Below are positions 3,021 through 18,451 of a stretch of 64,000 bases of DNA, piece after piece; position 1 is the first letter of the stretch; every line of letters starts with the position of its first letter. Source of the stretch: Verrucomicrobiia bacterium (GTDB taxonomy: Bacteria; Verrucomicrobiota; Verrucomicrobiia; Limisphaerales; JADLHS01). A model generated the notes under the pieces. The model had not been told where the DNA came from. It worked only from the letters and a program-made list of their open reading frames with translations, and ran no database searches. The stretch covers positions 248,001 through 312,000 of the forward strand of contig JAHCLO010000004.1 in NCBI GenBank assembly GCA_026125285.1, in the 5' to 3' direction. Both the position numbers and the translations under genes were made by a program.

Positions 3021-3563
3021 ATGAAATCCAACCTTCCACAAGTTCTGCTGCCGGTAGCCTTGGGGTTGATGACTGGAGCGTCACTGTGCCTGGCCCAACC
3101 GGCCCACATCCCGAAGGTTGGTGAGGCGGCCCCGCTGGTCAGCGGCAAGACCGAGAAAGGCGAAACCTGGAAACTCACCGATGCCAAGAGCAAGCATAAC
3201 GTGATCCTGTACTTCTATCCCAAAGACGACACGCCCGGTTGCACCAAGGAGGCGTGCGGTTTTCGCGACAGCATGGGCGATTTGAAAAAGCTCGACGTCG
3301 AAGTCGTTGGTATCAGTTTTGACAGCGAGGAGAGCCATCGTGCGTTCATTGAGAAGCATAAACTCAATTTCTCGCTGCTTGCGGACACGGACGGCAAAAT
3401 CACCGATGCCTTCGGCGTGCGGTCTCCGGGCCGGAATGTGGCTCGCCGCGTGAGTTTTCTCATCGGCAAGGACGGCAAAATCGCCCATGTAACCGATTCG
3501 CCACAAGCGGACGTTCACTTGAGCGAAATGAAGGAGGCCGTGGCGAAATTGAAAAAGAACTGA
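3021..3563 (+). CDS. Secreted peroxiredoxin, Bcp/AhpC-TSA type
   Basis: The 180-residue protein has a signal peptide ending near SLCLAQ (residue 26), followed by a thioredoxin-fold peroxiredoxin domain. The motif DDTPGCTKEACGFRD carries the peroxidatic Cys74 and a second Cys79 five residues on, the arrangement of Bcp-type atypical two-Cys enzymes. It would reduce peroxides outside the cytoplasm, whereas most Bcp proteins are cytoplasmic. It lies just downstream of an FMN reductase and upstream of the metal-resistance block, where protection from metal-driven peroxide stress would make sense. Confidence 0.9.
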   Translation: MKSNLPQVLLPVALGLMTGASLCLAQPAHIPKVGEAAPLVSGKTEKGETWKLTDAKSKHNVILYFYPKDDTPGCTKEACGFRDSMGDLKKLDVEVVGISFDSEESHRAFIEKHKLNFSLLADTDGKITDAFGVRSPGRNVARRVSFLIGKDGKIAHVTDSPQADVHLSEMKEAVAKLKKN

Positions 3564-3746
3564 AACCAGGTCGGCGCTCGATTCAGCACTCTTGTCGGAA
3601 TATGTTTGCGGGATCCTGGGATTGGCGAGGTACGACTGTTTGTGCCACGTTCAAAATGAACTAGCCCGAGTACTGCGGTACGAAAGCCTCTGGGGTTTTG
3701 CCCCGCAAGGAGGCGTCCCCAGCAACTTCGCACGACGCCAACTGGC

Positions 3747-4145
3747 CAAATCCGAGACTGGCTGTTTGAATCCGCCCTGCCGCTGGCTGAACGCGAAGAA
3801 TGCCAATATCTCCACCGACTGGCTATCTTGGTAGTAGAGCAGCCAGCAGTGCTGCGGGCACTGGAAGACATGAAGAACGTTTTGGTGAGACATCGAACCG
3901 CCGAAGAGCGGTTGCGATTACTTGCCGAAAGGGAATCCGCAGCCGAGCGAGTCCTGCGCATGGCCCAAGCACAATACGTGGCAGGTGCCATTAACTCGCT
4001 GGAAGCGACCAACGCGGAACGCGCCTCCCTGGCTGCAGCACGGTAAACAGTGGCGGCGGCGACAGAACAGCAACTGGCGCTGGTGGCACTCTACAAGGCA
4101 GTGGACAGCGGATGGAATGAAACGCAGTTCATGGCACACCAATGA
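3747..4145 (+). pseudogene. Remnant of a TolC-family outer-membrane efflux gene
   Basis: One frame encodes a helical stretch typical of the C-terminal half of TolC/CusC proteins: ESAAERVLRMAQAQYVAGAI, then SLEATNAERASLAAAR, a stop codon at 4044-4046, and in the same frame TVAAATEQQLALVALYKAVD and SGWNETQF before a second stop at 4143. The LVALYKAxxxGW ending is characteristic of the family. The N-terminal half is missing and no start is evident. It is probably the remains of an older efflux operon next to the present one. The rest of 3564-4184 shows nothing I can name. Confidence 0.65.
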
Positions 4146-4184
4146 AGACACCCATCACAGGCGACCTGTGGTTAGACCGGACTT

Positions 4185-4736
4185 TTAGCGGCAGTGCTCG
4201 GTGTGGCTGGATTCGCCGCAAGTGCAGTCGAGGCAACCATGTTTGCTGCACGCCCGGCAGTTCCTGGAGAGCAATTCGCGCAGATGTTTGCGGGCGCGAT
4301 ACAGCCGCACGGTCAGATTGTTCTTTGTCAAACCCAGGTGCGCGCCCACCTCGGCAGGGTCTTTGCCGTCCAGGTCAATTTGTTGCAGTAGTTCCCGATA
4401 TTGCGTTGGTACGGACGGCAACAGTCGCCGGAAACATTGGCACAGCAGTCGTTCAGTGGCGGCGCTGGGCGCTTCGGGAAGTTCAGCCTCGAATCGGGCC
4501 AGCGCTCGACTGCGGGCATCATTGCGCCGATAGAGGTCAATGATCGAGCGGCGCAGAATCCGATAGAACCACGCCACCGAATCCTCGGCATTGGCGGGTT
4601 TTCGATCGGCAGATAGGGCTTTCACCAGACTGTCCTGCACAAGATCCGCCGCCAGAGCATCATCGCCGACCCGCTTACGGGCAAACCCGATGAAGGTTTG
4701 GAGATTCTTCACGAGGGAATCTTCAACGCTGTGCAT
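4185..4736 (-). CDS. CorE-like ECF sigma factor with Cys-rich metal-sensing tail
   Basis: The 183-residue protein has sigma region 2 (DDALAADLVQDSLVKAL, residues about 25-41) and region 4 (LPSVPTQYRELLQQIDLDG, then AEVGAHLGLTKNNLTVRLYR). After region 4 comes a tail with the pattern CRAC, HGC, LDCTC, HTEHC, that is seven cysteines and three histidines in about 25 residues. This is the layout of CorE/CorE2 sigma factors of Myxococcus, in which the cysteine-rich tail binds copper, cadmium or zinc directly and no anti-sigma factor is needed. No anti-sigma gene is adjacent. It is divergent from a copper P-type ATPase, a plausible target. The metal bound cannot be read from the sequence. Confidence 0.85.
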   Translation of the reverse strand: MHSVEDSLVKNLQTFIGFARKRVGDDALAADLVQDSLVKALSADRKPANAEDSVAWFYRILRRSIIDLYRRNDARSRALARFEAELPEAPSAATERLLCQCFRRLLPSVPTQYRELLQQIDLDGKDPAEVGAHLGLTKNNLTVRLYRARKHLRELLSRNCRACSKHGCLDCTCGESSHTEHCR

Positions 4737-4771
4737 GTCGCAACCCTATCGATGCGGCCGACCAGCGGCAA

Positions 4772-4799
4772 GGGCGCTTCCGACTGGGCGCTTCCGACT
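4772..4799. promoter_or_regulatory. Perfect tandem 14-bp repeat between divergent sigma and ATPase genes
   Basis: GGGCGCTTCCGACT occurs twice back to back (4772-4785 and 4786-4799) in the gap between the CorE-like sigma gene and the copper ATPase gene. It could be a duplicated promoter element or binding site, or a replication-slippage product. There is no direct evidence of function. Confidence 0.35.
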
Positions 4800-4850
4800 G
4801 CCGGAAATTAAGATGTAATCATTTTCAGACTCGTGCGTTTGGTTTGGCAG

Positions 4851-7443
<2,593 letters not shown>

Positions 7444-7664
7444 GCCACCCGACTCACCGCCAGGGTGAAAAGCTTCCGCAATCGGTGTGGTTCACTGTTC
7501 AGACCAGCGCATTCACCAGATGACATTTGCTGATTGCCAGTGCCGGGCAAAGTGGTAAAGAATTCCTTAGTGATTTGACCCGCATCGGGGTATGAAATTG
7601 AGGGCGTGCAGGGATAAAGGGCGTGAGTGCAAGCAGGATTCACGATTAACAAAGACTCAAAAAC

Positions 7665-7946
7665 ATGAAGAACTTAACCAAACTGATCAGTCTGACTTTG
7701 GGCGCGGCCCTGATGGCCACCACTGCCTTGGCACAGGAGAAAAAGCCCGAGAAAGCCAAGCCTTACACCCTCGACAAATGCCTTGTTTCTGATGAGAAGC
7801 TCGGCGAAATGGGCAAGCCGTATGTCTTCGTTCACGAAGGACGAGAGATCAAGCTATGCTGCAAACCTTGCCTGAAAGGGTTCAAGAAGGATCCGGCCAA
7901 GCACATCAAGAAGCTCGAGGCGGCGGAGAAGGCCGCCAAGAAGTAA
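7665..7946 (+). CDS. Small secreted YHS/TRASH-like metal-binding protein
   Basis: The 93-residue product has a signal peptide (ISLTLGAALMATTALAQ) followed by a short domain, KPYTLDKCLVSDEKLGEMG, then VHEGREIKLCCKPCLKGF and a Lys-rich tail. The cysteines of KC and CCKPC followed by an aromatic residue resemble YHS/TRASH metal-binding modules. A paralogue of about half-identical sequence lies at 16690-16974, at the other end of the efflux operon. I infer a periplasmic metal chaperone or sensor, but no experimentally known family is recognised. Confidence 0.75.
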   Translation: MKNLTKLISLTLGAALMATTALAQEKKPEKAKPYTLDKCLVSDEKLGEMGKPYVFVHEGREIKLCCKPCLKGFKKDPAKHIKKLEAAEKAAKK

Positions 7947-7954
7947 CCAAAAAA

Positions 7955-7974
7955 CGCCAAAATTGAGTTTGGCG
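7955..7974 (+). terminator. Possible hairpin after the small metal-binding gene
   Basis: CGCCAAA and TTTGGCG form a 7-bp stem with a 6-base loop nine bases after the stop codon. No T-run follows, so it may only attenuate transcription or be unrelated. Confidence 0.25.
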
Positions 7975-8003
7975 CGAATGGATCGCGCGATTAACTTGCT
8001 GCC

Positions 8004-8345
8004 GTGAAAACGTTGCTCGCCTGCTTGATGAGCGTGGTCCTTGTGTGGACCCCGGCGGGGCTGACGTTTGGCACGATCCCGGATAATGCAGAGCGCGCTG
8101 CCTGCCGCTGCTGCGATTGTGGCGGTTCGGGTTGTTGCGTTTCCCCCTCTGCGCCGGAGTCACCGCCGCTGCCTGCCATTCCGGCCCCCGCCGGGAATTC
8201 CTCGCCACTCTGGCTTCTACCCGTGCCGGCGCCCTGCTGGACCCTGTCTGAGTCCACAAGCCTGCGCGTGGCTTCCCCAAATTCTCTCTCGCTGACGACG
8301 TTCAGCGTGCCGCTGTTCACGCGGTATTGCGCCCTGCTGATCTGA
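8004..8345 (+). CDS. Small secreted Cys-rich, Pro-rich protein
   Basis: The 113-residue product starts at GTG. A signal peptide (TLLACLMSVVLVWTPAGLTFG) is followed by the cluster CRCCDCGGSGCC, a Pro-rich linker and a C-terminal VPLFTRYCALLI. The cysteine cluster suggests binding of soft metal ions in the periplasm. It sits at the head of the tolC-cusB-cusA genes, so a part in copper handling is likely but unproven. I do not recognise the family. Codon use fits the neighbours and the frame is open, but it could be missed or miscalled by gene finders. Confidence 0.55.
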   Translation: MKTLLACLMSVVLVWTPAGLTFGTIPDNAERAACRCCDCGGSGCCVSPSAPESPPLPAIPAPAGNSSPLWLLPVPAPCWTLSESTSLRVASPNSLSLTTFSVPLFTRYCALLI

Positions 8346-8436
8346 TTCTTCCTGGCCAGACGCCCGCAGTGTGTACCGCGCCGGCGCATTGCGTACTCCT
8401 TGGGTCGTTCGGCGCAGGAAGAGCATTCAAATCAGC

Positions 8437-9774
8437 ATGAAAACAAACATCCTTTTCAGTCTTACTCTGCTTGTCCTGGCAAATGCAGCGTCCGGGGACA
8501 CGGTTTCCCAGCCGGCGCGACCCGAGACCGGGCCGTTACGGATTACGCCGGAGTTGATCACGCAATTTGCCGAGGAAATGCGGACCAAGCACCCCGCCTT
8601 GCAGGCGGCAGAGGCGACTGTGGCCGCCGCCGTGGCCAACGAAGCCACCGTGCGCCGTTGGGAAGATCCCATGCTGCGCTTCGGAGGCATGGCGGCGGAA
8701 ACGATGATGCGCGCTGACGAAGGCGATCTGCTCTACGGGATCGAACAGAAGCTGCCGCTGTTTGGCAAGCCACAGGCCAGCCGTTCGCTTGCGCGGGCGG
8801 AAACCGGCGTGGCGACGGCCGATGCCGAGTTTCGATTCCAACGCCTGCGCCGCGACCTGGCCTTGGCCGTGTTCCAGACCGCGTTGGCCGACCGCGTAGT
8901 GGAAATCGGACGGCAGGATTTGGACTGGTTGGAAACGTTGGTCGCCGTGGCGAAGCACCGTTACGAAGCCGGCGACACCACCCAACTTGACGTCCTACGA
9001 CTGCAAAACGAACGCGCTCGACGCCAGACCCGGCTGCAAACGGAAACCGACATGCGCGGTCAGGCGCGGGTCAACCTCAACCGCCTGCTCAATCGCCCGT
9101 TGGATTCGCCTTGGCCCAACCTGCTATTGCCGGATGTGGCTCGTCCCGTGGCCTACAGCCCAAGGTTGATGGAACTGGCGCTGAAATTTGAACCGGGGAT
9201 CAGCTTGCGCCGCCAACAGGTCACCCAAGCGGAGGCGGCGGTGACGGTCGCCCGGCGCGAACGGTATCCCGACGTGAGCGTGGGCGCCGAGGCGCGCAAT
9301 TACACCGGCAACGGAGAGTTCCGTCAGGGGATGCTGATGCTTGGTTTCAATCTGCCCCTCGGTAACCGCAAGCGTTACGCGGCAGCGATTCGGCGGGAAC
9401 AAGCCCGCGCGCAATCCATTGAACTTGAACTGGCCGACGCCGAACTGGCGCTACGCAATGAAATTCACGAACTGATAGTGAGAATTGATGCGGCCCGTCG
9501 CGAAGCACTCGTTTTCCAGGATGAAATCGCTCCGCGTAGCCGGGCGGCGCTCGCAAGCGCCCAAGCCGCGTGGGAGTCGGGCCGCGGGATGATGATTGAT
9601 CTGTTGGATGCGCGCCGGATGCTCCTAGAGGCCCAAGTGATGCAGGCCCGGGCGGTGGCTGAACAGTACGAATGGTTGAGTGATCTGGTTTTGTGTTGTG
9701 GAATAGGCGACTTGGAGGCTCTCGAAATGATCGGCGCACTGCCGGAACAGCAGAACGGAGAGGATACGCGATGA
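8437..9774 (+). CDS. TolC-family outer-membrane efflux protein (CusC-like)
   Basis: This outer-membrane channel of about 445 residues works with CusB- and CusA-like partners to push metal ions out of the cell. It has a signal peptide (MKTNILFSLTLLVLANAASG) and the two OEP repeats: HPALQAAEATVAAAVANEA and LFGKPQASRSLARAETGVA in the first, GISLRRQQVTQAEAAVTVAR and FNLPLGNRKRYAAAIRREQA in the second. ATG 8437 is preferred over an upstream ATG at 8371 because the signal peptide begins there. Its stop overlaps the cusB start by four bases. Confidence 0.9.
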   Translation: MKTNILFSLTLLVLANAASGDTVSQPARPETGPLRITPELITQFAEEMRTKHPALQAAEATVAAAVANEATVRRWEDPMLRFGGMAAETMMRADEGDLLYGIEQKLPLFGKPQASRSLARAETGVATADAEFRFQRLRRDLALAVFQTALADRVVEIGRQDLDWLETLVAVAKHRYEAGDTTQLDVLRLQNERARRQTRLQTETDMRGQARVNLNRLLNRPLDSPWPNLLLPDVARPVAYSPRLMELALKFEPGISLRRQQVTQAEAAVTVARRERYPDVSVGAEARNYTGNGEFRQGMLMLGFNLPLGNRKRYAAAIRREQARAQSIELELADAELALRNEIHELIVRIDAARREALVFQDEIAPRSRAALASAQAAWESGRGMMIDLLDARRMLLEAQVMQARAVAEQYEWLSDLVLCCGIGDLEALEMIGALPEQQNGEDTR

Positions 9775-11765
9775 ACTTGAATTCGATACCTGAACTCCAA
9801 GAATCACAGCCTCGTGCGCACTCGTTCTCGCGTTACGGCCAGACTGCCATTCTCGTCGCCGGCGTTTGCCTCGCGGCATTATTGAGTATTCTCCCCGGTT
9901 GCAACCACAGCGGCGAGCCACACGCCACCTACAACCCGGAACCAACAACCAACAACCAACAACCAACAAGCGATAACCAACAACCCATCATCTACTCCTG
10001 CCCCATGCACCCGCAAATCCGCCAGCCCAATCCGGGCCGGTGTCCCATTTGCGGGATGGAGCTTACGCCGGTGGCGGGCGACCGTGACGCGGACGACAGC
10101 TCCGCGCCGGTATTGCGCGTCAGCCGCCGCGCCGCCGCGCTTATGGAAATCCAAACCACGCCGGCTGAACGTCGTTCGGTCGAAGCGGAGCGGCGTTTTC
10201 TTGGCAGGTTTGTTTATGACGAAACGCGGCTCACCGACATCGCGGTGCGGACCGACGGGCAGGTTGAACGGCTGTTCGTCAATTACACCGGCGTACCCGT
10301 GCGTAAAGGTGAACACGTCGCCGAGATTTACAGCCCGGAGTTTTTTGCGGCGACCAAGGAACTGCTCGTGGCGGCCCGCGCCGACGCCGATCCCGCGTTG
10401 CGCGAATCGGCCCGCCTGCGGCTGCGCCTGCTGGACGTGCCGGATGAACAAATCGAGGACATGCTTCGTGTGGGCGAGGCAAAGAAAACGTTCACCCTGT
10501 TCAGCCCGGTCAACGGCGTGCTCACCGAACTGGGCGGGCGGCAGGGCGGCTGGTTGATGAAGGGCCAACGCCTCGCGCAGATTGCCGACCTTTCGTCGCT
10601 CTGGGTGCTGCTCGACGCGTATGAATCGGACATCGCCCTGATCCATTACGGGCAACAGGTAAAGCTCGAAGTGCCCGCGTTTCCTGGACGCGAGTTCACG
10701 GGTTTCGTCGCCTATGTCGCCCCCGATCTCGACGAGCGCACGCGCACCATCAAGGTACGGCTCAACGTGCCGAATCCCGACGGACGGTTGCGGCCCGGCA
10801 TGTTTGCGCGCGCGGAACTCAAAGTGCCGTTGACCGCCGATGGTCTGGCCTATGGCCCGGAGTTGGCCGGCAAATGGATTTGTCCGATGCATCCGGAAAT
10901 CACCGCCGCCGAACCCGGCGCCTGCAGCTTATGCGACATGCCGTTGGAGGCGGCGGAGAAACTCGGCCACGTCAGTTCGGAGCGGGAGGTCAAACTGCCG
11001 TTGGTGATTCCGGCCAGCGCGCCGCTCATCACCGGCCGACGCGCGGTGGTCTATGTGCAGTTGCCCAACACCGAACGCCCGACCTTCGAGGGTCGCAACA
11101 TCCAGCTCGGGCCACGCGCGGGCGACTATTACCTCGTGCTCGAAGGTATCAGTGAAGGCGAGCGCGTGGTGACGGAGGGGAACTTCAAAATTGACAGCGA
11201 ACTCCAGATTCGCGGCCGTCCGAGCATGATGGCGGCTGATGGGGCGTGGCGGGTGGCGGGGGCGAGGGACGAGGGGCGGGGGGCAAGGGAGGGTTTTGTG
11301 GCGCGCACGGACGTTCCAAGTGCTTTTGGGGAACAGGTGGCGCAACTGGCCAAGGCGTATCTCGAACTCGCCACAGCGCTGGCAGGGGATGATTTCGAGA
11401 GATCGCGCACGGCAGCGGTGGCAATGAATGAACTGTTGCACTCATTCGATTCCAGTGCGCTGGCGGAGGAAGCGTCCATCGCGTGGAAGCTGCTGGAAAC
11501 CGAGTTGCACAAGCCACTGCACGCGATGCGTGAGCCGACGGACATCGCCGCGTTGCGCGAACAACTTGTCCCCCTTACCCAACACACCGAGCACGCCGTG
11601 GTCGCTTTCGGTGCGGGTCAGGTGGGCAAACTGTACGTCGCGCATTGTCCCATGGCCTTTGGCAACAAAGGCGCGAACTGGCTGCAAGCCGACGAAAACA
11701 TCGCCAATCCGTATTACGGCGCGCGGATGTTCCGGTGTGGGGAAATCGAAAGGACGCTCGAATGA
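9771..11765 (+). CDS. CusB-like membrane fusion protein with two metal-binding domains and a DUF3347 tail
   Basis: This periplasmic adaptor of an RND metal exporter is about 664 residues, much longer than E. coli CusB (about 400). A membrane anchor or lipobox (SILPGC, Cys44) leads into a heavy-metal-binding domain, YSCPMHPQI...CPICGMEL (residues 75-98), then the barrel-hairpin core. A second CPMHPE...CSLCDMPLE module lies near residue 368 and a DUF3347-type domain ends the protein (VAHCPMAFGNKGANWLQA, NPYYGARMFRCGEI). Residues about 54-72 (NPEPTTNNQQPTSDNQQP) are encoded by a heptanucleotide array and form a disordered linker. Translation is coupled to tolC by the ATGA overlap. Confidence 0.9.
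   Translation: MNLNSIPELQESQPRAHSFSRYGQTAILVAGVCLAALLSILPGCNHSGEPHATYNPEPTTNNQQPTSDNQQPIIYSCPMHPQIRQPNPGRCPICGMELTPVAGDRDADDSSAPVLRVSRRAAALMEIQTTPAERRSVEAERRFLGRFVYDETRLTDIAVRTDGQVERLFVNYTGVPVRKGEHVAEIYSPEFFAATKELLVAARADADPALRESARLRLRLLDVPDEQIEDMLRVGEAKKTFTLFSPVNGVLTELGGRQGGWLMKGQRLAQIADLSSLWVLLDAYESDIALIHYGQQVKLEVPAFPGREFTGFVAYVAPDLDERTRTIKVRLNVPNPDGRLRPGMFARAELKVPLTADGLAYGPELAGKWICPMHPEITAAEPGACSLCDMPLEAAEKLGHVSSEREVKLPLVIPASAPLITGRRAVVYVQLPNTERPTFEGRNIQLGPRAGDYYLVLEGISEGERVVTEGNFKIDSELQIRGRPSMMAADGAWRVAGARDEGRGAREGFVARTDVPSAFGEQVAQLAKAYLELATALAGDDFERSRTAAVAMNELLHSFDSSALAEEASIAWKLLETELHKPLHAMREPTDIAALREQLVPLTQHTEHAVVAFGAGQVGKLYVAHCPMAFGNKGANWLQADENIANPYYGARMFRCGEIERTLE
9933..9988 (+). repeat. 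Heptanucleotide array (AACCNNN x8) inside cusB
   Basis: Eight successive 7-bp units in exact phase: AACCCGG, AACCAAC four times, AAGCGAT, AACCAAC, AACCCAT. They encode a low-complexity Asn/Gln/Pro/Thr linker in CusB. The 7-bp period cannot be explained by codon structure. Confidence 0.85.
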
Positions 11766-11772
11766 GAGGAGA

Positions 11773-11928
11773 GGTTTTGGTTGTTGGTTATGGGTTATTG
11801 GTTGTGGGTTGTCGCGCGCGTCAGCAAGCGCCGCGCATCCCTGCAACCGCCAACCGCCGACCCAATACCGATAACCGATAACCCACAACCCATAACCGAA
11901 AACCCATAACCAACAATCGACAACCAAC
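11773..11928. repeat. Inverted heptanucleotide arrays between cusB and the four-helix-bundle gene
   Basis: Six units of the type GTTNNNG (11773-11814) are followed, after about 30 bases, by twelve units of AACCNNN type in perfect 7-bp phase (11845-11928), ending 10 bases before the next start codon. The two arrays are inverted relative to each other and could pair as a long imperfect hairpin. Confidence 0.8.
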
Positions 11929-11938
11929 AAACCACGCC

Positions 11939-12460
11939 ATGACAAAAATCACCACCTTCCGCGACCTGAACGTTTATCAGAAACTGAAGTCGCTGCACTT
12001 GGAGGTTCATGCGGAGAGCCTGAAGTTTCCGAAGTTCGAAATGTACGAACTGGGATCACAGGTGCGGCGGTCGTCCAACGCCGCGCCCGCGATTCTGGCA
12101 GAAGGCTGGGGCAGCCGGCACACGAACATTTATCTTGAGGCAATTAACCGCTCGCTCGGCGAAGTCCGCGAGACGCAGCATCACCTGGACATTGCGGCCA
12201 GCAAACACTACCTGACGCCGAAACGATTTCAGGAACTTGACACCGCCTACAATCACTGCGGTGGCATGTTGGAGCGTCTTTACCAGAGCCTCAATCAATG
12301 GCGCGGCTCACGCCGTTCGGATTCCGAACTGCGCGAAACTCCGCCTCCTTACGGCATTCCCACCCAATCACCCGATGTCGAATGGGATCACATTGTCGCC
12401 CTCACCGAACAAATCCTATCCACCCCCGACATCCCCCAACCCCCAACCGACAACCCATAA
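11939..12460 (+). CDS. Four-helix-bundle protein (S23/IVS family)
   Basis: The 173-residue product matches the family of proteins first found in 23S rRNA intervening sequences: FRDLNVYQKLKSLHLEVH at the start, QVRRSSNAAPAILAEGWG, and helical ETQHHLDIAASKHYLT. The biochemical role of this family is unknown. It is unusual to find it between cusB and cusA, flanked on both sides by heptanucleotide arrays, and its last residues (PDIPQPPTDNP) are encoded by the downstream array. It looks like an insertion into the efflux operon rather than a functional part of it. Confidence 0.85.
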   Translation: MTKITTFRDLNVYQKLKSLHLEVHAESLKFPKFEMYELGSQVRRSSNAAPAILAEGWGSRHTNIYLEAINRSLGEVRETQHHLDIAASKHYLTPKRFQELDTAYNHCGGMLERLYQSLNQWRGSRRSDSELRETPPPYGIPTQSPDVEWDHIVALTEQILSTPDIPQPPTDNP

Positions 12461-12493
12461 CCAAGAACCGATAACCTAAAACCCACAACCGCC
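12438..12493 (+). repeat. Heptanucleotide array (AACCNNN x8) just upstream of cusA
   Basis: Eight 7-bp units in phase (AACCCCC, AACCGAC, AACCCAT, AACCAAG, AACCGAT, AACCTAA, AACCCAC, AACCGCC) span the end of the four-helix-bundle gene and the 37-base gap before cusA. The array occupies the place where the cusA ribosome-binding site should be, and no purine-rich site is visible. Confidence 0.8.
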
Positions 12494-12497
12494 CACC

Positions 12498-15400
12498 ATG
12501 CTCGACCGCCTCATCCGCTTCTGCCTGGAGCAAAAGCTCATCGTCGCGCTCCTCGTCCTGTTCATCTTCGGCTGGGGCATGATGGTGGCGCCGTTCGACT
12601 GGCGCATTCCCGGGCTCGAACGCCGGCCCGTCGCGGTGGATGCCATCCCCGACCTCGGCGAGAACCAGCAGATCGTCTTCACCGAATGGATGGGCCGCTC
12701 GCCGCAGGACGTGCAGGACCAGATCACCTATCCGCTCACCGTGTCGCTGCTCGGTGTGCCGGGCGTGAAAACCATCCGCAGCACCTCGATGTTCGGGTTC
12801 TCGTCCATCTACATCATCTTCGACGACAACATTGACTTCTACTGGGCGCGCACACGAATTCTCGAAAAGCTCAACAGTCTTCCCGCCGGATTGCTTCCCG
12901 CCGGCGTGCAACCCGCCCTCGGCCCGGACGCCACCGCGATGGGCCAGGTGTTCTGGTACACACTCGAGGGACGCGACCCCGACGGGCAACCCGTGGGTGG
13001 ATGGGATCTGCACGAGTTGCGCAGCATCCAGGACTGGCAGGTGCGGTTCGCGTTGCAAGCGGCGGACGGCATTGCCGAGGTCGCTTCGGTGGGCGGGTTC
13101 GTGCGCGAATACCAGGTGGACGTTGACCCCGACGCCATGCGCGCGCACGGCGTCACGCTCGAACAGGTTTTCGAAGCTGTGCGCAAGTCGAACCTCGACG
13201 TCGGCGCGCGCACCATCGAGATCAACCGCGTCGAATACTTGATTCGCGGACTCGGCTTCATCCGCTCGCTCGAGGATCTTGAGTTGGCCGTGGTGCGGAC
13301 TGAGGACTTCGTACCCATCCGCATCAAGGACGTGGCGCACGTGTCGCTCGGCCCGGCCCTGCGCACCGGCGCGCTCGACAAGGAAGGCGCGGAAGCCGTG
13401 GGCGGCGTGGTGGTGGTGCGGCACGGCTTCAACCCACTCGAAGCCATCCACAACGTCAAGGCACAGATGGCGCGGCTGAATCCCGCGCTGCCGTCGCGCC
13501 CGGTAATTGACTGGGACAAGACCACCCGCGCGGACGTCGAACGCTTCGCCGAACGCGCCGAGATTGGGGCGCGTCAAGACGACTCAACTCGTAGCAGCGG
13601 ACGTGAGTCCGCTCCAATTTCAACAACAGCATCCGGAGAAAGTTCGAGCGGACTCACGTCCGCTGCTACGGGGAAGGGGTTTATCAACGGGCGCTTGGAT
13701 GAGGACGCCTGGCTGCAATGGCTGCGTTCCACTCCACGCGAACGCTGGCCGGAATGGGTGACGATCAGCCAGGTGAACATCGTGCCGTTCTACGACCGCA
13801 CAGGCTTGATCCAGGAAACACTCGGCACGTTGAACAAGGCACTGATCGAGCAGGCGTTGGTGACGATCATCGTCGTCATCGTGATGGTGCTGCACCTGCG
13901 CAGTTCGCTGCTCATCAGCGGTATGTTGCCGCTGGCGGTGTTGATGACGTTCATCGCGATGAAATTGTTCGGCGTCGAAGCCAACGTCGTCGCCCTCGCC
14001 GGCATCGCCATCGCCATCGGCACGATTGTGGACATGGGGATCATCGTGTCTGAGAACATCCTCAAGCACCTTGAGGAGGCAAGGTTATCGGTTGCAGGTG
14101 ATGGGTTATCGGTTGATGGGCCGTCCGACAACCCACAACCTAAAACCCAAAGCCCAAAACCAGTCTCCACCCTCGACATCGTTTTCCGCGCCACGTCCGA
14201 AGTCGGCTCGGCCATCCTCACGGCCATCGCCACCACCGTCATCAGTTTCCTGCCCGTGTTCACCATGACGGGCATGGAAGGCAAACTGTTCAAGTCGCTG
14301 GCGTTCACCAAGACGTTCGTGCTGGTCGCGTCGGTGATCGCGGCATTGACCATCATTCCCGCCGCGGCACACGTCATCATCGCCGGACGCGTGGATCGGC
14401 GCGGGCTGAAACGGGTGTTGCTGATCGGGTTGTTGGTGTTGGGTTTTGGGTTGTTGGTTGCGGCGGTGTGGATCAAATCGGTTGTGGTGTTGTTGGGCGG
14501 ATTGTTTGTTGTCGGGGCGGGCGCGTATTACCTGTTTGCAGAGAATCTGCCGGAGATGTGGCGCAAGGCCGGGCCGTGGGCGGCAAGCGCGGTGGCCGTC
14601 TTGATCGTCGGCTGGATGCTCGCCGAACGCTGGCTGCCGCTCGGACCCGAACGCGGCTTCACGCGCAATCTCATCTTCGTGGCGCTCATCGTGGGTGGCG
14701 CGCTGCTGTTCTTCCGCTTGTTCGAGCGCGGGTACGGCGCGATTCTCCGCTGGTGTCTCGATCACAAGGCGGCGTTCCTCGCCATTCCGCTGGTGTTGGT
14801 CGTGGTGGGCCTCTGTTCGTGGCTGGGCTTCGACCGCGTGTTCAGCTTTGCGCCGCGCACACTCGCGAAGGTGGGCATCAAGGAGGACTGGGTTCGGCTC
14901 AGTCCACCGTGGGTGTGGGCCAAACACGCTTTCCCCGGCCTGGGACGCGAATTCATGCCCGCGCTTGATGAAAGTTCGTTCCTTTATATGCCGTCTGCGT
15001 TGCCGCACGCCTCGCTCGGCGAATCGCTCGATTACCTCTCGAAACAAAACCTGCTTATCCGCGCCATCCCCGAGGTGGACGAGGTCGTGGGGAAAATCGG
15101 GCGTGTCGAAAGCGCGCTCGATCCCGCGCCCGTCGGCATGGTCGAAACCGTCATCAACTACAAGCCCGAGTTCGTTTCCGACGAGCACGGCTATCCCCTC
15201 CGTTTCAAATTTGACCGCAAGCGCGGCGAACATGTCCGGGACGAACACGGCGAACTCATACCCGATCCCCGGGGCCGTCCCTACCGCCAGTGGCGTGAAC
15301 ACATCCGCACGCCGGACGACATCTGGAACGAGATCGTGAAGGAGGCCGCGATCCCCGGCGCGACCGGCGTGTCGAAATTGCAGCCGATCGAAACGCGGCG

Positions 15401-16643
15401 CGTGATGCTCCAGAGTGGCATCCGCGCGCGCATGGCCGTGGAAGTCAAGGGCGACAACCTCGACACCATCAACGACCTCGTCCTGCGCGTGGAACAACTG
15501 TTGCGCAGCGGCGAAATCCCCGGCGTCAACCTCGACAGCGTCATCGCCGACCGCATCGTCGGAAAGCCCTACCTCGAGATCCACTTGGATCGCCACGCCC
15601 TCGCCCGTTACGGCCTGCGCGTGAACGACGTCCAGGAGGTCATCGAAGTCGCCATCGGCGGACGGACCATCATCACCACCGTCGAGGGGCGCGAACGGTA
15701 TCCCGTCCGCGTCCGTTACCAGCGTGAGTTGCGGGGCAGCATCGAAGACCTCGAACGCGTGCTCGTCTCGACGATGGACGGCGCGCAGATTCCCTTGTCA
15801 CACTTGGCGGAAATCCGTTACGTGCGCGGGCCGGAGGCGATCAAGGGCGAGGACACCTTCCTCGTCGGTTACGTCCTGTTCGACAAACTGGCCGTGTTTC
15901 CCGAGGTGGACGTGGTCGAGGCGACGGACCGTTATCTGCGAGGAAAAATTGACAGCGGCGAACTCGCGTGGCCGGGCGGTTACACCTACAGCTTCGCCGG
16001 CGATTACGAGAACCAGCTTCGCGCCCAACGCACGTTGATGATCGTGTTGCCGCTGGCGTTGTTCATCATTTTCATGCTGCTGTATTTTCAGTTCCGCTCG
16101 ACGGTGACGACGGCGATTGTGTTCAGCGGCATCGCGGTGGCGTGGGCGGGCGGGTTCACCATGATCTGGCTCTATGGGCAGGACTGGTTCGGAAACTTCT
16201 CCGTGCTGGGCGTGAACCTGCGCGAGTTGTTTCAGTTGCACCAGATCAACCTGAGTGTGGCTGTCTGGGTGGGATTCCTCGCGCTATTCGGCATTGCTGT
16301 GGACGACGGCGTGGTGATTGCGACGTATCTGCGGCAAAGCTTCGCCAAACGCGCTACGGAGACCATCGCGCAGATTCGTGAAGCCACCATTGCCGCCGGT
16401 CTGCGCCGCGTGCGTCCGTGCCTCATGACCACCGGCACGACGACGCTCGCGCTGTTGCCCGTGCTGACCAGCACCGGCCGCGGCGCGGACATCATGATCC
16501 CGATGGCCATCCCGATCTTCGGCGGCATGACCCTGGTGTATCTGACCATGTTCACCGTGCCGGTGCTGTACGCGCTGGTGGAAGAGTGGAAACTGAAGGA
16601 GAGGAGATCGAGTCACAACCACTCCGCGGCAGAAAAGATTTGA
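12498..16643 (+). CDS. CusA/CzcA-family RND heavy-metal efflux pump
   Basis: This inner-membrane proton-driven pump is 1381 residues, about 330 more than E. coli CusA. It begins MLDRLIRFCLEQKLIVALLV, contains DAIPDLGENQQIVFTEWMGR, the transmembrane block GIAIAIGTIVDMGIIVSENI with its conserved acidic residue, and FGIAVDDGVVIATYLRQSF near the end. The extra length comes from several insertions. One is a palindromic element at about residues 365-391, another a heptad-array segment at about 529-556 (LSVAGDGLSVDGPSDNPQPK), and a third an added membrane region near 635-755, part of which is also heptad-encoded. The frame stays open throughout, so the pump may be functional. Confidence 0.9.
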   Translation: MLDRLIRFCLEQKLIVALLVLFIFGWGMMVAPFDWRIPGLERRPVAVDAIPDLGENQQIVFTEWMGRSPQDVQDQITYPLTVSLLGVPGVKTIRSTSMFGFSSIYIIFDDNIDFYWARTRILEKLNSLPAGLLPAGVQPALGPDATAMGQVFWYTLEGRDPDGQPVGGWDLHELRSIQDWQVRFALQAADGIAEVASVGGFVREYQVDVDPDAMRAHGVTLEQVFEAVRKSNLDVGARTIEINRVEYLIRGLGFIRSLEDLELAVVRTEDFVPIRIKDVAHVSLGPALRTGALDKEGAEAVGGVVVVRHGFNPLEAIHNVKAQMARLNPALPSRPVIDWDKTTRADVERFAERAEIGARQDDSTRSSGRESAPISTTASGESSSGLTSAATGKGFINGRLDEDAWLQWLRSTPRERWPEWVTISQVNIVPFYDRTGLIQETLGTLNKALIEQALVTIIVVIVMVLHLRSSLLISGMLPLAVLMTFIAMKLFGVEANVVALAGIAIAIGTIVDMGIIVSENILKHLEEARLSVAGDGLSVDGPSDNPQPKTQSPKPVSTLDIVFRATSEVGSAILTAIATTVISFLPVFTMTGMEGKLFKSLAFTKTFVLVASVIAALTIIPAAAHVIIAGRVDRRGLKRVLLIGLLVLGFGLLVAAVWIKSVVVLLGGLFVVGAGAYYLFAENLPEMWRKAGPWAASAVAVLIVGWMLAERWLPLGPERGFTRNLIFVALIVGGALLFFRLFERGYGAILRWCLDHKAAFLAIPLVLVVVGLCSWLGFDRVFSFAPRTLAKVGIKEDWVRLSPPWVWAKHAFPGLGREFMPALDESSFLYMPSALPHASLGESLDYLSKQNLLIRAIPEVDEVVGKIGRVESALDPAPVGMVETVINYKPEFVSDEHGYPLRFKFDRKRGEHVRDEHGELIPDPRGRPYRQWREHIRTPDDIWNEIVKEAAIPGATGVSKLQPIETRRVMLQSGIRARMAVEVKGDNLDTINDLVLRVEQLLRSGEIPGVNLDSVIADRIVGKPYLEIHLDRHALARYGLRVNDVQEVIEVAIGGRTIITTVEGRERYPVRVRYQRELRGSIEDLERVLVSTMDGAQIPLSHLAEIRYVRGPEAIKGEDTFLVGYVLFDKLAVFPEVDVVEATDRYLRGKIDSGELAWPGGYTYSFAGDYENQLRAQRTLMIVLPLALFIIFMLLYFQFRSTVTTAIVFSGIAVAWAGGFTMIWLYGQDWFGNFSVLGVNLRELFQLHQINLSVAVWVGFLALFGIAVDDGVVIATYLRQSFAKRATETIAQIREATIAAGLRRVRPCLMTTGTTTLALLPVLTSTGRGADIMIPMAIPIFGGMTLVYLTMFTVPVLYALVEEWKLKERRSSHNHSAAEKI
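13591..13669. repeat. 24-bp perfect inverted repeat inserted in frame in cusA
   Basis: The arms 13591-13614 (GTAGCAGCGGACGTGAGTCC then GCTC) and 13646-13669 are exact reverse complements separated by 31 bases. The element encodes a Ser/Thr/Ala-rich insert (SSGRESAPI to SGLTSAAT) in a periplasmic part of CusA. It has the form of a REP- or MITE-type palindrome, with no coding capacity of its own. Confidence 0.85.
14083..14164. repeat. Facing heptanucleotide arrays inside cusA
   Basis: Five GGTTNNN-type units (14083-14117) face five AACCNNN-type units (14130-14164) across 12 bases, all in 7-bp phase. The segment can fold as a hairpin and encodes a cytoplasmic linker of CusA next to LKHLEEA. Confidence 0.8.
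14428..14462 (+). repeat. Heptanucleotide array (GGTTNNN x5) encoding a membrane helix of CusA
   Basis: Five units (GGTTGTT, GGTGTTG, GGTTTTG, GGTTGTT, GGTTGCG) encode the hydrophobic stretch GLLVLGFGLLVAA, which is predicted to span the membrane. Confidence 0.7.
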
Positions 16644-16689
16644 TCATGCCGAGTATTCAAACTACAAAGTGGTTCAACACAGCAAATCT

Positions 16690-16974
16690 ATGAAACACAT
16701 TCAACTCACCTGTATTGGGCTGGCGGTGGCAGGCGGTTTTCTGCTCGCTGGCTGCGGCAAGACCCACGATCACGATCACGGCGCTGCCCGCGGCACCGCC
16801 GAAGCCAAACCGTATCCCCTGGATGTCTGTATCGTGGCGGATGAAAAACTTGGCTCGATGGGCGATGCCATTGTGCGCGTGCATGAGGGCCAGGAAGTGA
16901 AATTCTGCTGCAAGGATTGCGTGGGCGAATTTGAGGCCGACCCGGAGAAGTATCTGGCAAAGCTCAAACAGTAA
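16690..16974 (+). CDS. Small lipoprotein, YHS/TRASH-like metal-binding paralogue
   Basis: The 94-residue product has a lipobox (LAVAGGFLLAGC), a His-rich segment (KTHDHDHG) and a domain KPYPLDVCIVADEKLGSMG with VHEGQEVKFCCKDCVGEF, closely related to the protein at 7665-7946. Lipidation would anchor it to a membrane, unlike the soluble paralogue. The cysteines and histidines suggest copper or zinc binding. It directly follows cusA (46 bases) and probably belongs to the same transcript. ATG 16690 is chosen over a GTG at 16669 because the signal peptide starts there. Confidence 0.8.
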   Translation: MKHIQLTCIGLAVAGGFLLAGCGKTHDHDHGAARGTAEAKPYPLDVCIVADEKLGSMGDAIVRVHEGQEVKFCCKDCVGEFEADPEKYLAKLKQ

Positions 16975-16985
16975 ACCCGCGAATT

Positions 16986-17004
16986 AGGCCCGCAGCCCGG
17001 GCCT
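16986..17004. terminator. Possible hairpin between convergent lipoprotein and glmM genes
   Basis: AGGCCCG and CGGGCCT form a 7-bp stem with a 5-base loop in the short gap between two convergent genes. No T-run follows on either strand, so its role as a terminator is uncertain. Confidence 0.3.
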
Positions 17005-17068
17005 CCCAAGCAGGTTTCGGGGTGACGTGACGCCGGCGTGGTTGCCCCTTGCCGCCAACTGATCGGAA

Positions 17069-18451
17069 TCAAGCCCCGATCTGCCGCTTGAGGGCTTCCC
17101 CAATTCTCTGCGACCATTTTTCGAGCACTTTAAGGTCGCGGCCTTCAACCAGCAGCCGGGCTTTGGGTTCGGTGCCCGAGTAACGCAGCAACAACCGCCC
17201 GCCCTGCGCCTGGAGTTCTTTCTCCGCTTCGGCGGCAAGCGCGGTAACGCCGTCCAGCTTCTCAAACGGGAGCTTCTCGCGCACCACCACGTTGGTGACG
17301 ATCTGTGGAAAACGCGTCCAACAACCCACCAGTTCGCTCAACGGTTTGCCGGTGGCGCGCATGATCCGCAGGATTTGCAGCGCCGCCACCAAACCGTCGC
17401 CCGTGGTGCTGAACTCGCGAAAGATCAGGTGGCCGCTTTGCTCGCCCCCGAAGTTAAAGCCGCCGCGCAGCATCTCGTCTATGACGTTCTTGTCGCCCAC
17501 CGGCGCAGACATCACCCGCCCGCCCGCCGCCTGGACGGCCGCCGCCAAACCCGAGTTGCTCATCACCGTGGTGACCAGCGTCCGCTCGGCCAGGGTGCCT
17601 TGCGCGAGCATTTCGAGGGCCGCGATGGCCATGATGTCATCCCCATCAATCAGCCGTCCGGCTTCGTCGCACAACACCACGCGGTCCGCATCGCCATCAT
17701 GCGCCAACCCCACGTCGGCGCGAAATTCGCGCACGCGCTGGCAGAGTTGTTGCGGATGCATGGAGCCACATTCCTTGTTGATGTTCTTGCCATCGGGTTG
17801 GGCGCCAAAGAGGAAGACCTCGGCTCCCAATTCCCGAAGGACGCACGGAGTGGACTTGTAGGCAGCGCCGTTCGCGCAATCCACCACGATCCGCATGCCC
17901 TCCAGCGTCAGGCCGCGGGGGAAAGAAGCTTTGGCGAACTCAATGTAACGGCCCAGGGCATCGTCAATGCGCACGGCTTTGCCGATTTCCTCGGCGGTGG
18001 GCCGGATGTTTTCAATCTCGCCGCCAAAGACAAGTTCTTCCACCTCCGCCTCAATCTTGTCGTCGAGCTTGTAGCCGTCCGCGCGGAAAAACTTGATGCC
18101 GTTGTCCGCATACGGATTGTGGGAGGCGGTGATGACCATGCCGGCATCCGCGCGCAGACTGCGCGTGACATAAGCCACGCCCGGCGTGGGCAACGGACCG
18201 ATGAACAACACGTCCACACCCATGGACAGGATGCCGGACGAGAGCGCGTTTTCGATCATGTAACCCGAAAGGCGCGTGTCTTTGCCGACGACGATGCGAT
18301 GCCGGCCACGGCTGCGCGACTCGGTTTCCAGGTTCTTAAAAACGTGGGCGGCGGCGCGCCCGAGCTTGAGCGCGGTTTCGACGGTGACGGGTTCAATGTT
18401 GGCGATGCCGCGCACGCCATCGGTGCCGAAGATTTTTCTAGGTTTGGTCAT
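17069..18451 (-). CDS. glmM: Phosphoglucosamine mutase
   Basis: The enzyme converts glucosamine-6-phosphate to glucosamine-1-phosphate for peptidoglycan and LPS precursors. The 460-residue product has the N-terminal FGTDGVRGIAN, the active-site phosphoserine loop TASHNPYADNGIKFF, the metal-binding DGDADRV and the C-terminal phosphate-binding LLRYSGTEPKARLLVEG. It is the last gene of a leftward operon folP-cdaA-cdaR-glmM. The linkage of glmM to a diadenylate cyclase and its regulator is conserved in many bacteria and ties cell-wall synthesis to c-di-AMP. Its ATG overlaps the stop of the cdaR-like gene by four bases. Confidence 0.95.
   Translation of the reverse strand: MTKPRKIFGTDGVRGIANIEPVTVETALKLGRAAAHVFKNLETESRSRGRHRIVVGKDTRLSGYMIENALSSGILSMGVDVLFIGPLPTPGVAYVTRSLRADAGMVITASHNPYADNGIKFFRADGYKLDDKIEAEVEELVFGGEIENIRPTAEEIGKAVRIDDALGRYIEFAKASFPRGLTLEGMRIVVDCANGAAYKSTPCVLRELGAEVFLFGAQPDGKNINKECGSMHPQQLCQRVREFRADVGLAHDGDADRVVLCDEAGRLIDGDDIMAIAALEMLAQGTLAERTLVTTVMSNSGLAAAVQAAGGRVMSAPVGDKNVIDEMLRGGFNFGGEQSGHLIFREFSTTGDGLVAALQILRIMRATGKPLSELVGCWTRFPQIVTNVVVREKLPFEKLDGVTALAAEAEKELQAQGGRLLLRYSGTEPKARLLVEGRDLKVLEKWSQRIGEALKRQIGA

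Follow-up and report, generated by a model that had tools for sequence, protein, structure and literature searches.

A CorE-type sigma factor divergent from copA and a predicted copper regulon in Verrucomicrobiota

Introduction

On a 64-kb stretch of DNA from a Verrucomicrobiia bacterium (hereafter the window), an ECF sigma factor gene lies divergent from copA, which encodes a copper-type P1B ATPase and precedes cus-like efflux genes on the same strand. The locus raises the question of whether a single protein could both sense copper and switch on its resistance genes. A first-pass annotation had described the sigma factor as a CorE-like metal sensor and had proposed one-protein copper control of the whole block; its observations were confirmed in part, and its interpretation is supported in part. 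In the available text of a 2021 review (PMC8103513), CorE and CorE2 of Myxococcus are the only members of this metal-sensing group to have been studied experimentally. On the basis of the analysis described below, we conclude that the window sigma factor is very probably a partnerless CorE-type ECF sigma factor (former ECF44) that is activated by copper, reads a promoter at 4814-4841, and turns on copA.

Results

The sigma factor gene and its neighbors

The sigma factor open reading frame extends on the minus strand from 4736 down to 4185, stop codon included, and positions 4737-4799, which the first-pass annotation had included in the feature, are noncoding upstream DNA (Table 1). The product matches Sigma70_r2 and Sigma70_r4_2 of Pfam above the cut-offs and no further domain, giving a protein with sigma2 and sigma4 only, and its AlphaFold model predicts helices in two blocks; the fold of the tail in that model (pLDDT below 50) is unreliable, and no claim is drawn from it. 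The best NCBIfam match of the core is SigZ (TIGR02959), but its score of 88.9 bits lies far under the curated cut-off of 168.65 bits and SigZ membership was therefore rejected; the match stops at residue 162, ahead of most of the cysteine-rich tail. When the protein was used as a tblastn query, R. litoralis Och 149 gave a match at 38% (1e-22) and P. zucineum HLK1 one at 37% (7e-20); both strains have members in the 2011 list of CorE-like proteins, a relation shown at the level of the strain.

No anti-sigma gene adjoins the sigma gene when the neighboring frames are compared with Pfam, as had been proposed: on the minus strand, neither frame 3515-4012 nor frame 4746-5366 has a match in Pfam, whereas frame 3021-3563 encodes a peroxiredoxin. 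The nearest anti-sigma candidate (1224-1715), recognized by eye and lacking an anti-sigma Pfam match, is situated about 2 kb from the sigma gene. It is part of a minus-strand cluster (124-2227) in which another ECF gene (1712-2227) overlaps this possible membrane anti-sigma gene, followed by a PDZ-domain gene, and the pair is a system separate from the CorE-type sigma factor. Between the peroxiredoxin gene and the sigma gene, the plus strand carries a degenerate remnant of an outer membrane efflux gene (3660-4043; Pfam OEP, E 0.0012, below the cut-off).

Table 1. Coordinates of the features of the window and of metallothionein-like frames at related loci
Feature	Position	Strand	Basis
CorE-type ECF sigma factor gene, 183 aa	4185-4736	-	Translation, ORF, Pfam, alignments of 40 and 39 sequences
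Cys-rich tail, residues 160-182, C-x2-C-x4-C-x2-C-x-C plus sixth Cys	4191-4259	-	CorE spacing as given in the available text of PMC3107203 and PMC9023288
Linker CXC, codons of Cys99-Gln-Cys101	4434-4442	-	Linker CXC in 38/38 distinct sequences, window included
Tandem repeat, exact 14-bp unit, sigma upstream region	4772-4799		Sequence
Predicted CorE-type copA promoter: -35 TGTAAT (4814-4819), 16-bp spacer, -10 CGTTTG (4836-4841)	4814-4841	+	Pattern and matrix
copA, copper-type P1B ATPase, YHS and two HMBD	4851-7443	+	E1-E2 ATPase by Pfam; long single frames in relatives
Small TRASH/YHS-like protein gene	7665-7946	+	Weak Pfam matches, below cut-off
cusC-like outer membrane efflux gene	8371-9774	+	Pfam OEP; no sigma site upstream
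cusB-like adaptor gene, two HMBD	9768-11765	+	Pfam HlyD_D23, HMBD; no sigma site upstream
cusA-like RND pump gene	12498-16643	+	TIGR00914 above cut-off; no sigma site upstream
Cys-rich, metallothionein-like frame	L053:7708-7857	-	Unannotated; adjoins CorE-type sigma gene, behind predicted promoter
Cys-rich, metallothionein-like frame	L056:2035-2190	+	Unannotated; adjoins CorE-type sigma gene, behind predicted promoter
Cys-rich, metallothionein-like frame	L057:8720-8860	+	Unannotated; adjoins CorE-type sigma gene, behind predicted promoter
Cys-rich, metallothionein-like frame	L188:9651-9809	-	Unannotated; adjoins CorE-type sigma gene, behind predicted promoter

The cysteine layout is that of CorE

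The protein contains eight cysteine residues (99, 101, 160, 163, 168, 171, 173, and 182), of which six rather than the seven first counted belong to the tail; the other two form a CQC motif in the linker that the first-pass annotation did not mention. According to the available text of PMC3107203, the tail cysteines of CorE are residues 181, 184, 189, 192, 194, and 206, with four of them (181, 184, 192, and 194) invariant and Cys189 the main activating residue, and Cd and Zn elicit a weak response from CorE. The linker between sigma2 and sigma4 contains a CXC that is described as essential and kept across the former ECF44 group (PMC8999054, available text), and the spacing is given as C-x4-C-x2-C-x-C (from Cys184) for CorE and C-C-x3-C-x2-C-x-C for CorE2, the extra adjacent Cys of the latter setting its Cd/Zn response (PMC9023288, available text). 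The window protein has the marks of the former ECF44 group, namely, the four invariant residues (Cys160, Cys163, Cys171, and Cys173), the linker CXC, and no linked anti-sigma gene, together with the residues of the copper (CorE) subtype: Cys168 is present at the position of CorE Cys189, and the residue directly after the second tail cysteine is Ser164 in place of the CorE2-type Cys. The sixth tail residue, Cys182, is not conserved. We assign the protein as CorE-like, in agreement with the original reading, on three grounds: its first five tail cysteines are spaced exactly as in CorE, the linker carries the CXC, and no anti-sigma gene lies next to the sigma gene.

These features were compared across 38 distinct sequences (window included, seven duplicates dropped; L003-L008, L047, and the decayed copy L049 are outside the set). 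All 38 possess the linker CXC and C-x2-C-x4-X-x2-C-x-C with its four invariant tail cysteines, although one of the six peptides that recruited L009-L028 came from the tail, so that the tails of the more distant of these loci may be non-independent evidence; L031-L049 and later loci were recruited by whole-protein score. The Cys168 equivalent is found in 35 of the 38; the other three sequences come from alphaproteobacterial plasmids, and two of these have a CC like that of CorE2. An alignment of 40 rows omits seven of 47 sequences (L015, L016, L017, L023, and L068-L070, the last three without Cys168), and the invariance of Cys168 in it is valid for those 40 only. A marine CorE survey (PMC10141476) was not used, as TIGR02937, given in the available text as its model for CorE, is a general sigma factor model.

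Two other Cys-tailed ECF proteins of the window genome (L003 and L004, on contigs C56 and C8) have neither the linker CXC nor the CorE spacing; their tails contain CC and then three later cysteines, no promoter site of the kind described below occurs within 400 bp, and by eye they are SigZ-like.

The identity of the signal bears directly on this anatomy. The same sigma factor and promoter might answer to Ag, Cd, Zn, Hg, or thiol oxidation and not to copper, as cysteine clusters can bind several metals, sequence alone cannot name the metal, and CorE itself shows the weak Cd and Zn response noted above. We regard such a signal as improbable, given that Cys168 and Ser164 match the spacing of CorE and not CorE2 and that most verrucomicrobial loci have a CopA-type ATPase as the adjacent target. 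Copper is thus the preferred signal.

A conserved promoter-like element faces copA

The sigma and copA genes share an upstream region of 114 bases (4737-4850, with the ATG at 4851 taken as the start of copA), as the first-pass annotation had stated. The tandem 14-bp repeat that it had noted there is exact, but among the fetched loci the unit is confined to copies of this same region and a conserved role for it was rejected.

A different element is conserved. The core TGTAA-N17-CGT was found within 300 bp upstream of the sigma gene in 21 of 38 training loci, where shuffled sequences are expected to yield 0.147. The 21 comprise 20 of the 25 verrucomicrobial training loci and one of the 13 others (one of the 13 is of unstated phylum); the latter has a poor -10, and the motif is not claimed for other phyla. 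When core spacings from 10 to 26 were scanned, the only one other than 17 at which the core occurred was 13, in the three training and three hold-out loci whose sites contain CGTGCGT. The hold-out set consisted of nine new loci after removal of three duplicates: the pre-set pattern TGTAA-N17-CGTYWG occurs in four (expected 0.003), and the core, which was chosen after these loci had been seen, in all nine (expected 0.023). The orientation of the site follows copA in the training loci (14/14 divergent and 5/5 co-directional) and in the hold-out loci (4/4 and 4/4), such that it faces copA in 27/27 loci where both adjoin, its strand flipping with copA. The training loci are related to one another: the 34 verrucomicrobial sigma factors fall into 23 groups at 80% identity and 18 groups at 70%. 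In five verrucomicrobial loci (L053, L056, L057, L063, and L064) the 300 bp ahead of the sigma gene contain no site; each has one elsewhere, found only after a targeted look.

The consensus of 37 sites is TGTAAT-N14-TG-CGTYWGC-N4-GTGAA, in which the invariance of TGTAA and CGT follows from how the sites were selected. Additional positions are kept in most of the 37, with T21 in 31, G22 in 30, T35 in 32, G36 in 31, and A38 in 31; a C follows the -10 in 36, the window site being the sole exception. The start codon lies 8 to 10 nt past the -10 in many loci (window 4814-4853, L018, L060, L062, L065, L066, L158, and L189-L193), which suggests near-leaderless transcripts with a very short leader, and part of the downstream consensus may be the start codon itself.

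Within the window, TGTAAT-N16-CGTYWG has a single exact match, at 4814-4841, against a chance mean of 0.02. The same position ranked first (20.9 bits) when both strands were scanned with a matrix made of 16 sites from loci whose sigma factors are at most 57% identical to that of the window; the second-best site (12.8 bits, at 16898) falls within a YHS gene, and we make no claim for it. Control of copA by the predicted site is strongly supported because a conserved ECF-type promoter at 4814-4841 tracks copA. The search for common promoters that the first-pass annotation had suggested thus succeeded at copA, but it yielded no significant sigma-facing site: over 14 divergent loci the best sigma-facing scores averaged 1.3, compared to -0.8 (SD 3.8) in shuffles, and autoregulation in the divergent layout is unsupported.

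Nor did the matrix detect a site scoring above 0 bits ahead of seven further plus-strand gene starts in the block, so the proposed control of the copper resistance block is supported for copA and not for a cus operon with its own site. The cus genes may be reached by read-through from copA or by another promoter; scans of 4100-17100 for sigma-70 promoters and terminators found no more than in shuffles. The gap between cusB and cusA holds a gene for a four-helix protein of the 23S rRNA intervening-sequence type (11939-12460, plus strand).

The copA frame and a second copy of the system

The divergent copper ATPase was confirmed by its E1-E2 ATPase, HMBD, and YHS matches, but its frame is broken: one extra base is present near 6212 relative to each of the four relatives aligned there. 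The same genome has a second copy of the system on contig C56, with a sigma factor 61% identical to that of the window, a copA with an open frame of 845 codons, and relatives of CusA and CusB. One could suppose that the window locus is decaying, with a real frame break and a regulator that now acts only through the copy on C56, where the copA frame is open; the degenerate efflux remnant beside the locus would fit such a history. We think this unlikely, since neither the sigma gene nor its promoter shows damage, and a single base may have been misassembled in a draft genome.

Distribution among relatives and genome-wide controls

A homologue of the sigma factor was found at E <= 1e-25 in 18 of 146 relatives. 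Setting aside G071, whose sigma factor (32% identity) has the cysteine layout and no site beside its gene, copA lies within approximately 3.5 kb of the sigma gene in 12 of 17 sigma-bearing genomes, and among the five others G030 and G122 have less than 1.4 kb of contig on one side, where a copA could be hidden. Adjacent copA genes are divergent or downstream on the same strand, the exception being L025 (outside Verrucomicrobiota), where copA is upstream on the same strand. Three genomes (G030, G061, and G122) showed no copA close to the sigma gene but have one on a different contig, its start immediately preceded by the site. The copA of L115, from the sigma-bearing genome G101, is without a site.

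The element was absent from all 15 copA loci of sigma-less genomes (drawn from the best 30 copA loci of the relatives), where sigma-less means no homologue at E <= 1e-25 and where two loci, L130 and L131, have little upstream sequence. One of these genomes has a copA (L111) that is 81% identical to that of the window in the compared region and still lacks the site. Across 28 sigma-bearing genomes, TGTAAT-N16-CGTYWG occurs 57 times versus 17 for the reversed pattern, whereas in the window genome by itself a less strict pattern is outnumbered by its reversed control (19 versus 45). A stricter pattern has matches in 12 of 18 sigma-bearing and in 36 of 128 other genomes, and a lone match without context therefore means little.

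These counts also bear on whether the sigma gene is a bystander, the element being an operator or promoter of another copper regulator of the CueR, CsoR, or two-component type. Reading of the element by the sigma factor is itself deduced, and G098, of the same genus as G061 and G122, is an exception that keeps the site at copA with no sigma gene found. ECF promoters have a fixed spacer and a CGT in the -10. The element resembles them in both respects and is not a dyad, and this resemblance, the 15 of 15 sigma-less copA loci that lack it, and its excess over the reversed pattern make a different regulator highly improbable. The CorE-type sigma factor is the preferred reader.

Beyond the phylum, the gene after the CorE-type sigma gene resembles a DUF4396 membrane protein in L022, L026, and L028 (KSB1, Zixibacteria, and Leptospirales), as judged by Pfam for L026 only (E 4e-41) and by eye for L022 and L028. 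This suggests that DUF4396 genes are another target in other phyla.

Small cysteine-rich frames behind the predicted promoter

In G074, G030, and G101 a site is located just 3' of the sigma gene, ahead of an unannotated frame of 44 to 52 aa with 7 to 10 cysteines; the G030 site reads CGTGTG at the -10. G588 has a site between divergent genes, ahead of a 53-aa frame with 12 cysteines, and two more sites ahead of an HMBD copA and an HlyD/CusB-type adaptor gene. The four metallothionein-like frames align as a family. A profile made from them has matches at E <= 0.01 in 5 of the 146 genomes, comprising the three source genomes within the set, each beside the sigma gene, and two at E 0.008 that were taken as noise. 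Differences by codon position (36/34/55) provide a weak coding signal. Membership in metallothionein Pfam families was rejected, as two of the four frames gave sub-threshold matches only (E 0.13 and 0.0067). The window has no frame of 25 to 90 aa containing seven or more cysteines and four or more CxC, a threshold that also misses the G101 frame.

Discussion

The protein has a CorE-type anatomy, its gene is linked to copA, and a conserved promoter-like site is coupled to the sigma gene. By analogy with CorE of Myxococcus, we infer that the window sigma factor is what reads this site, that its signal is copper rather than Cd or Zn, and that metal would trigger its activation. Copper would bind the linker CXC and the cysteine tail and switch the sigma factor on; the copper-bound protein would take a form that binds core enzyme and promoter and would direct RNA polymerase to TGTAAT-N16-CGTTTG, from which the divergent copA would be transcribed, with the same-strand cus genes perhaps reached by read-through.

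On a wider scale, the results probably reflect a phylum-wide, single-protein copper regulon in Verrucomicrobiota, in which CorE-type sigma factors act through one extended promoter on copA wherever it is situated in the genome, on an RND adaptor gene in one genome, and on a family of metallothionein-like proteins of 44 to 53 aa, known so far only beside CorE-type sigma genes. What is new is the predicted regulon. This kind of sigma factor was already known and, contrary to what the original proposal implied, its verrucomicrobial setting is not new, since the 2011 list (PMC3107203, available text) already includes members from V. spinosum and O. terrae. Our literature search found no paper on this Verrucomicrobiota regulon, though an earlier ECF238 promoter motif is possible, and none on metallothionein control by CorE-like sigma factors. 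With 37 predicted targets in one phylum, all sharing one spacing, the promoter rule and the regulon of such sigma factors become directly testable, and the regulon points to small cysteine-rich genes that ordinary length limits skip.

Comparison with known systems

OrbS of Burkholderia cenocepacia, in the available description, is likewise a sigma factor whose own cysteine tail binds metal; that tail is spaced C-x2-C-x3-C-x5-C, and iron inhibits OrbS instead of activating it, unlike the behavior predicted for the window protein. CorE2 of Myxococcus xanthus has the same architecture and linker CXC as the window sigma factor but carries, right after the second invariant tail cysteine, the extra Cys of the Cd/Zn type, where the window protein has Ser164. 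The closest counterpart is CorE of M. xanthus (ECF44, now ECF238), which also has no linked anti-sigma gene, a linker CXC, and a six-cysteine tail whose first five residues are identically spaced, with the sixth following after x11 in CorE and x8 in the window protein. The reported targets of CorE are cuoB, copB, a gene for an HMA protein, and, less clearly, copA, whereas the window copA is divergent across 114 bp behind a predicted TGTAAT-N16-CGTYWG site; copA is probably among the targets of CorE too.
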